The translations under genes and the position numbers were made by a program. Below are positions 23,558 through 28,326 of a stretch of 64,000 nt of DNA, piece after piece; position 1 is the first letter of the stretch; every line of letters starts with the position of its first letter. The stretch is from NCBI GenBank assembly GCA_016871895.1, contig VHBO01000001.1, positions 124,001-188,000 on the forward strand, read 5' to 3'. A model generated the notes under the pieces. That model was not told the DNA's origin. It made no database searches and saw nothing but the letters and a program-made list of their open reading frames with translations. The stretch is from Gemmatimonadota bacterium (GTDB lineage: Bacteria > Gemmatimonadota > Gemmatimonadetes > Gemmatimonadales > Gemmatimonadaceae).

Positions 23558-27261
<3,704 letters not shown>

Positions 27262-27265
<4 letters not shown>

Positions 27266-28176
27266 CGGGTGCCCTCCGCAGCCGTCGCGCTCGGCGTCGC
27301 GCCCGTCGCCGCGCGTCCCGGCCGCAGCCCGAGGATGTGGCAGAGCGCGTAGGTGAGGTCCGCGCGGTTCAGTGTGTAGAAGTGGAACTCCGTCACACCG
27401 GCCTGCGCGAGCTGCTGGCACTGCTCCGCCGCCACCGTCGCGGCCACGAGCTTCCGCGTCTCCGGGTCGCCGTCGAGACCGTCGAACATCCGCGCGAAGG
27501 CGGGCGGCACCGTCGCGCCCGTCGCGGCGGCGAACTTCACCATCTGCGTGAAGTTCGTCACCGGCATGATCCCCGGGACGATCGGCACCGTGATTCCCGC
27601 CTTCCGCGCGCGGTCCACGAAGCGGAGGTAGGTCCAGTTGTCGAAGAAGAACTGCGTGATCGCGCGCGTCGCGCCGGCGTCGATCTTCCGCTTGAGGTTG
27701 TCGAGATCCGCCTGCGGCGAGGCGGCTTCGGGATGCGTCTCCGGATACGCCGCAACGGTGAGCTCGAAGTCGTGCCGCTTCCGCAGACCGCTCACGAGGT
27801 CCGACGCGTAGGCGTAGCCGGTGGAGGAGGGCGCATACACCCCGCCGCCCGGGACGTCCCCGCGGAGCGCGACCAGGTGGCGTACCCCTGCCGCCCAGTA
27901 GTCATCGGCGACGGCGTCGATCTCCTCCCGTGAGGCCGCGACGCAGGTCAGGTGGGCGGCCGGCACGAGCCCCGTCTCGCCGAGGATGCGGCGGACGGTG
28001 TGATGTGTGCGTTCGCGCGTGGAGCCGCCGGCGCCGTACGTGACCGAGACGAAGCGCGGAGCGAGCGGGGCGAGGCGCGTGATCGCGCGCCAGAGGGTCT
28101 CCTCCATTTCCGCCGACTTCGGCGGAAAGAACTCGAACGAGACCTGGAACGGGACAGGAAGGGCGAGGGTGCTCAC
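27262..28176 (-). CDS. metF: Methylenetetrahydrofolate reductase
   Basis: 304 residues from a GTG at 28176 ([10 protein letters not shown]); the tracked 402-residue form would translate through the riboswitch and its promoter, so it is rejected. Seen: [18 protein letters not shown] at the N-terminus, [45 protein letters not shown] and [12 protein letters not shown], all standard MetF barrel signatures. Role: FAD-dependent reduction of methylene-THF to methyl-THF, the methyl donor for MetH, whose gene overlaps by 4 nt. The predicted SAM-II aptamer ends 49 nt upstream. Confidence 0.97.
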
Positions 28177-28197: not shown

Positions 28198-28224
28198 GCC
28201 CGGTGCGTTCGAGGCGCACCGGGC
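28198..28224 (-). terminator. Perfect 10-bp hairpin between SAM-II aptamer and metF
   Basis: GCCCGGTGCG and CGCACCGGGC arms with a 7-nt loop form a perfect hairpin starting 1 nt after the aptamer and ending 21 nt before the metF GTG. Only two Us follow it. It may be the expression platform (terminator or translation-blocking element) of the riboswitch. Confidence 0.5.
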
Positions 28225-28225
28225 C

Positions 28226-28281
28226 GGCGCTTTAGCGGGATGTTTTACGTGGCCGCAAGTTGCCTCGAAATCGCCACGGGG
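28226..28281 (-). promoter_or_regulatory. SAM-II-type riboswitch aptamer in metF leader
   Basis: On the minus strand the leader contains a P1 stem CGTGGC/GCCACG enclosing GATTT, then CTTGCGG just before the 3' P1 strand, then TAAAACAT and CGCTAAAGCGCC. The order and wording (stem, GAUUU, UUGC, stem, AAACA, CGCUAAA) match the SAM-II (metA/SAM-alpha) consensus. A GGC in the loop can pair with GCC at the 3' end for the pseudoknot. SAM-II aptamers bind S-adenosylmethionine and switch off methionine genes; placement directly upstream of metF-metH agrees. A covariance-model search was not possible here. Confidence 0.82.
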
Positions 28282-28297
28282 ATCGGTTGTCGCATTC

Positions 28298-28326
28298 AAC
28301 CTATCATCCGGATGAACGGATGGCAA
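28298..28326 (-). promoter_or_regulatory. Promoter of the SAM-II/metF transcript
   Basis: On the minus strand TTGCCA (28321-28326) and TAGGTT (28298-28303) are separated by exactly 17 nt, a good sigma-70-type match. The predicted start would fall about 10 nt before the aptamer, leaving the riboswitch intact at the 5' end. Confidence 0.65.

Follow-up and report, generated by a model that had tools for sequence, protein, structure and literature searches.

How is the metF-metH operon controlled in this member of the Gemmatimonadota, and does the metF leader carry a SAM-II riboswitch far from the setting in which that RNA is usually found, as a preliminary description of the locus proposed? The window is the whole 64,000-nucleotide stretch of DNA that was analysed; coordinates below are counted from its first letter, and all window features discussed lie on the minus strand, where the order is promoter, aptamer, strong hairpin, weak ribosome site GGA, metF and metH. 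The gene identities in the earlier proposal are confirmed with Pfam and NCBIfam: metF (27262-28176, GTG start at 28176, 304 amino acids) encodes MTHFR (PF02219, 3.5e-94; TIGR00676, PRK09432) and metH (23558-27265) is full-length (PRK09490, 2123 bits; TIGR02082), and we infer that metH starts at ATG 27265, overlapping the metF stop by ATGA. The promoter is also as proposed, with a -35 element TTGCCA (28326-28321) and a -10 element TAGGTT (28303-28298) separated by 17 nucleotides (28298-28326 overall), a layout common to the metF leaders of genus relatives even where the flanking sequence is not conserved.

Between this promoter and metF, at 28287-28212, cmscan places the SAM-II family of Rfam (RF00521) with 41.3 bits (gathering score, 36); the alignment spans the full model (positions 1-79), and the E-values are 6.7e-6 in the window search and 5.5e-8 in the genome search. 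SAM-II is the only Rfam family that reaches its cut-off within the window, and the metF leader copy is the only one found in the whole genome by a genome-wide RF00521 search. SAM-V, the other model that the preliminary description singled out, has no match at the Rfam cut-off anywhere in the window, and we rule out SAM-V or another RNA class since RF00521 alone reaches that cut-off there. A chance match or a mis-binned contig can likewise be ruled out because SAM-II is kept in 15 of 17 genomes of the genus, including all 11 of good quality.

The elements listed in the preliminary description (P1, GATTT, TTGC, P1', AAACA and CGCTAAA) are all found, and the alignment places the core letters GATTT, TTGC, AAACA and GCTAAA in the aptamer (28212-28287). 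The P1 hairpin (28248-28278), formed by CGTGGC at 28278-28273 and GCCACG at 28253-28248, encloses L1, and the P2 pseudoknot (28226-28264) joins GGC at 28264-28262 to GCC at 28228-28226 and TTGC at 28258-28255 to GC(U)AA at 28236-28232. The 6 base pairs of P1 are paired in 41 of 41 aptamers from relatives, and this helix is so nearly invariant within the phylum that it yields no covariation evidence. The expectation of covariation among relatives is thus borne out by P2 and not by P1: the outer P2 pairs are 91% kept, two of them having changed on both sides from GC to CG, and the inner four P2 pairs are invariant. With the covariance model matching and the pairs of both P1 and P2 kept in relatives, the identification survives, and by every feature that can be tested from sequence the aptamer is a SAM-II. 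It is in itself an ordinary one; what is new is its host range, its regulon and the probable double control described below. That this SAM-II riboswitch acts on metF-metH we hold to be very probable.

The host does belong to a phylum different from the familiar one, as had been suspected, since the closest named relatives of its MetF are from Gemmatimonadota, with up to 94% identity, to a metagenome-assembled genome (MAG) of that phylum; the genus also includes a MAG that carries the label Gemmatimonas phototrophica. A SAM-II match is present in 262 of 395 sampled Gemmatimonadota genomes (221 over the curated cut-off) and in none of 14 control genomes, with scores of up to 61 bits within the phylum, and genomes that have SAM-II often have 2-3 copies. 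SAM-II is a phylum-wide regulator in Gemmatimonadota, so that the description of this copy as lying outside its usual home holds against the literature but not within the phylum, where it is no outlier. The prior picture of SAM-II as mainly controlling alphaproteobacterial met genes agrees with Leyn 2014 (PMC4239095), and SAM-II has also been reported in other proteobacteria and in Bacteroidetes (Corbino 2005, PMC1273637; Barrick & Breaker 2007, PMC2258182). Our literature search found no paper linking SAM-II with Gemmatimonadota or Gemmatimonadetes, although the phylum may already be listed in census tables or among the sequences of Rfam's full alignment.

The genes downstream of SAM-II in the phylum widen its regulon, as the preliminary description had anticipated. 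For 115 aptamers, a sample that favours high-scoring matches and the window's genus so that the shares are not frequencies, the downstream gene is metH in 58, metF in 20, metX in 11, panB in 6, a metB/Y/Z-type gene in 6, thrC in 5 and hom in 3, with a TonB-dependent receptor, an aminotransferase and others as single cases. The second SAM-II copy in the genus precedes metX. The published alphaproteobacterial targets, as given in PMC4239095, are metY (the core target), metA, metX, hom, metC and metW; set against these, metF-metH and panB look like additions to the known targets of SAM-II. We found no paper linking SAM-II with panB in our literature search. With a model built in this analysis, SAM-II is detected at 21 of 21 named Gemmatimonadota metF loci (69-83 bits), whereas the 59 other metF loci, almost all of them alphaproteobacterial, gave no match; Rfam, run on 11 of these 59, likewise found no SAM-II. 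The closest MetF proteins from outside Gemmatimonadota are alphaproteobacterial, and as SAM-II is missing from every one of their loci in this set, nothing points to a transfer of the riboswitch together with metF from Alphaproteobacteria.

Several of the other targets are worth recording. SAM-II lies directly before panB (ketopantoate hydroxymethyltransferase, TIGR00222) at six loci (L002, L010, L022, L025, L029 and L135) in several genera belonging to two families; both PanB and MetF use up 5,10-methylene-THF. One of these loci, L002, has two divergent aptamers about 240 bases apart (1509-1556 on the minus strand and 1793-1838 on the plus strand), one preceding panB and the other preceding a gene for an ATP-grasp-like protein. 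Genes that by eye read as thrC-like (threonine synthase) follow SAM-II at L133, L134, L157, L165 and L170, with an apparent homoserine kinase gene (thrB), also read by eye, next at L134; such an arrangement would place the threonine branch under SAM control. At L187, SAM-II is followed by genes assigned by eye to a TonB-receptor-like protein and then an amino-acid-permease-like protein, a possible operon for methionine or cobalamin uptake. We also note same-strand pairs of SAM-II about 4.8 kb apart at L150 (2009 and 6774), where both copies precede metH-like reading frames, and at L160 (2009 and 6851).

The riboswitch appears to be only half of the control of metF-metH, because the same promoter contains a candidate operator of the SahR type; to that extent the earlier reading, which named SAM-II as the control, was correct but incomplete. 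The operator is a dyad (28305-28322, CATCCGTTCATCCGGATG) with arms CATCCG and CGGATG on either side of TTCATC, placed inside the metF promoter between the -35 and -10 elements and nearly unchanged in its letters among relatives in the genus, where the surrounding sequence has diverged. Exactly one further perfect dyad occurs in the genome, CATCCGGATATACGGATG (L194:1501-1518), where it overlaps the start of a gene (L194:565-1503, minus strand) for a 312-residue ArsR-HTH/methyltransferase protein resembling SahR (HTH_5, 3.3e-11; Methyltransf_11, 2e-24), and ahcY directly follows that gene. This arrangement of dyad, sahR-like gene and ahcY is kept in all five genus loci checked. A SahR homologue is present in 12 of 12 genomes from five genera, with the operator core upstream of it exact in 11 and carrying one mismatch in the 12th, and the position of the dyad at the start of the sahR-like gene, conserved in five genera, suggests autoregulation. 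Most alphaproteobacterial metF loci have a SahR homologue, with 33-40% identity, some 1 kb ahead of metF, as would be expected from the SahR core regulon of sahR, ahcY, metH, metF and metK described in PMC4239095.

The simplest reading is that a SahR-type repressor acts on the metF promoter through the dyad. The dyad might instead be a symmetric feature of the promoter, or the site of another regulator. However, the 16-bp core of the dyad (ATCCG-N6-CGGAT) is confined to metF leaders, being found in 20 of 20 of them and absent from all 95 SAM-II leaders of other genes in the phylum, and its sole other exact copy in the genome occupies a place typical of an autorepression site. We consider both of these alternatives, taken together, unlikely, and a SahR-type second layer on metF-metH quite probable. 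Since exact copies of the dyad occur in this genome at metF and at sahR-ahcY only, metF-metH is probably under both SahR-type control, responding to SAH, and SAM-II control, responding to SAM.

How might the aptamer act on expression? Directly abutting it is a terminator-like hairpin predicted by RNAfold (28198-28224), GCCCGGTGCG (CCTCGAA) CGCACCGGGC, followed by TTCGTGCGTC. A GC-rich hairpin comes directly after nearly all Gemmatimonadota SAM-II aptamers, in many cases with a clear T tract, whereas the T tract after the window hairpin is poor, with 3 T in 9 bases as against 4-7 in most sister metF leaders; termination in the window may accordingly be weak or factor-dependent. The segment GCCTCGAA (28208-28215), which takes in the whole hairpin loop, is exactly complementary over 8 bp to TTCGAGGC of L1 (28269-28262), a pairing that we propose as the antiterminator. 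In RNAfold the leader is bistable: P1 plus the terminator (-50.7 kcal/mol) and the L1 antiterminator (-49.6 kcal/mol) are nearly isoenergetic, in minimum-energy folds that leave out the pseudoknot. Transcripts of 80-96 nucleotides are predicted to fold as antiterminator and longer ones as terminator, and in six relatives the antiterminator is the lowest-energy fold of the leader. Two nearly isoenergetic folds of this kind fit a transcriptional OFF switch.

When the sequence downstream of each aptamer was compared with its own L1 and with the L1 of other aptamers, in groups whose members share ancestry, L1 complementarity gave permutation p values of 0.0002 (metF class), 0.001 (metX) and <=0.0001 (all non-metH classes). 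The same test gave no support in the metH class (p = 0.76), and we reject on that ground an L1 antiterminator as a general rule for SAM-II. In the metF leaders, covariation of neither terminator nor antiterminator exceeds that of shuffles, because the sequences are too alike. By inspection, one L1 position is changed from C to G in the sister genus, with the matching G to C change at L142 and L147. On these fold, permutation and covariation results we rate switching OFF by transcription termination as likely and lean only slightly towards L1 being the antiterminator strand. We note that in the metX copies of the genus (L127-L132) the left arm of the terminator, CGCGGC, is complementary to GCCGCG of L1 and the T tracts are good, so that the idea of L1 as antiterminator could be tested more cleanly on these copies than on metF.

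Two other readings of the riboswitch must be weighed. The SAM-bound RNA could hinder access of the ribosome to metF, the hairpin being only a spacer or stability element; this would suit the poor T tract of the window hairpin and the GC-rich character of Gemmatimonadota leaders, and translational SAM-II riboswitches are known from a Sargasso metagenome and from S. meliloti metA (PMC9373788). Nevertheless, the GGA at 28186-28184 that is the likely ribosome site falls within neither the P2 strand nor the hairpin, conservation of the hairpin extends over two genera, and sister leaders (L131, L182 and L174) have clear terminators with T tracts at the equivalent place, which makes a translational switch rather unlikely here. 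Decay of the aptamer to the point where SAM binding is lost, leaving metF-metH in the genus to the SahR-like repressor alone, might be suspected from the modest 41.3 bits and from an unusual C after GATTT in L1. We think this highly improbable, given that the core GATTT, TTGC, AAACA and GCTAAA is invariant in the metF leaders of the genus while the flanks diverge and that P2 pairing is kept.

We favour transcription termination by a SAM-responsive aptamer. When SAM is plentiful, its binding would lock P1 and the P2 pseudoknot and use up L1, so that the hairpin right after the aptamer could form and RNA polymerase would stop before metF. In the absence of SAM, the hairpin's loop and right arm would instead be paired with L1, together with the 5' strand of P1, and transcription would proceed. 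Independently, the SahR-like ArsR/methyltransferase repressor encoded with ahcY would occupy the dyad inside the promoter and come off as SAH rises. The operon would then be on when SAH is high and SAM low, and 5-methyl-THF and methionine would be made. That in Gemmatimonadaceae SAM-II switches metF-metH off at high SAM, with independent repression by a SahR-like protein, we consider probable.

Much of this has precedent in known systems. The aptamer resembles the SAM-II (SAM_alpha) of Corbino 2005 (PMC1273637) in matching the same covariance model above cut-off, in its P1, L1 and P2 pseudoknot, and in having a promoter just upstream, a terminator-like hairpin downstream and a methionine gene as target; it differs in its Gemmatimonadota host, in targeting metF-metH instead of metA, metX or metY, in the candidate operator in the same promoter and in the complementarity of L1 to the hairpin loop. 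Transcription-terminating SAM-II is precedented in PMC1273637 and by S. meliloti metZ, for which PMC9373788 gives a predicted terminator. That leader, like ours, has a hairpin after the SAM-II, a Rho-independent-type terminator there and a terminator-like one here, and its OFF logic is the one proposed here, but gene and phylum differ. As in the proteobacterial SahR regulon of PMC4239095, an ArsR-type regulator is linked to ahcY and metF-metH and to a palindromic site, the published SahR palindrome being 20 bp long; unlike that regulon, metF here additionally carries SAM-II, and the regulator, 33-40% identical to the homologues found before metF in Alphaproteobacteria, sits with ahcY instead of metF. 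The one precedent for double SAM_alpha/SahR control, hom-metXC of Oceanicaulis alexandrii (PMC4239095), is from a single genome and concerns other genes and another phylum, whereas in the present case riboswitch and candidate operator form a fixed pair across two genera.

As far as the literature was searched, a phylum-wide presence of SAM-II in Gemmatimonadota, its metF-metH and panB targets and its fixed pairing with a probable SahR-type operator are new. A regulon earlier centred on metY, metA and metX gains metF, metH, panB, thrC(-thrB) and what may be an uptake operon. In a 2013 survey the limited distribution of SAM-alpha was read as pointing to a recent origin (PMC3766115); its presence in two thirds of the sampled Gemmatimonadota genomes argues against recent emergence, and that view needs revising. 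The fuller proposal, to which we give even weight for and against, is that in two genera of Gemmatimonadaceae a single promoter-leader computes SAH over SAM, with L1 as antiterminator, and that SAM-II is an old, phylum-wide element and no recent proteobacterial invention. The metF leader would then be a natural pair of SAH and SAM sensors on one promoter, which makes the long-assumed control by 'methylation ratio' directly testable.
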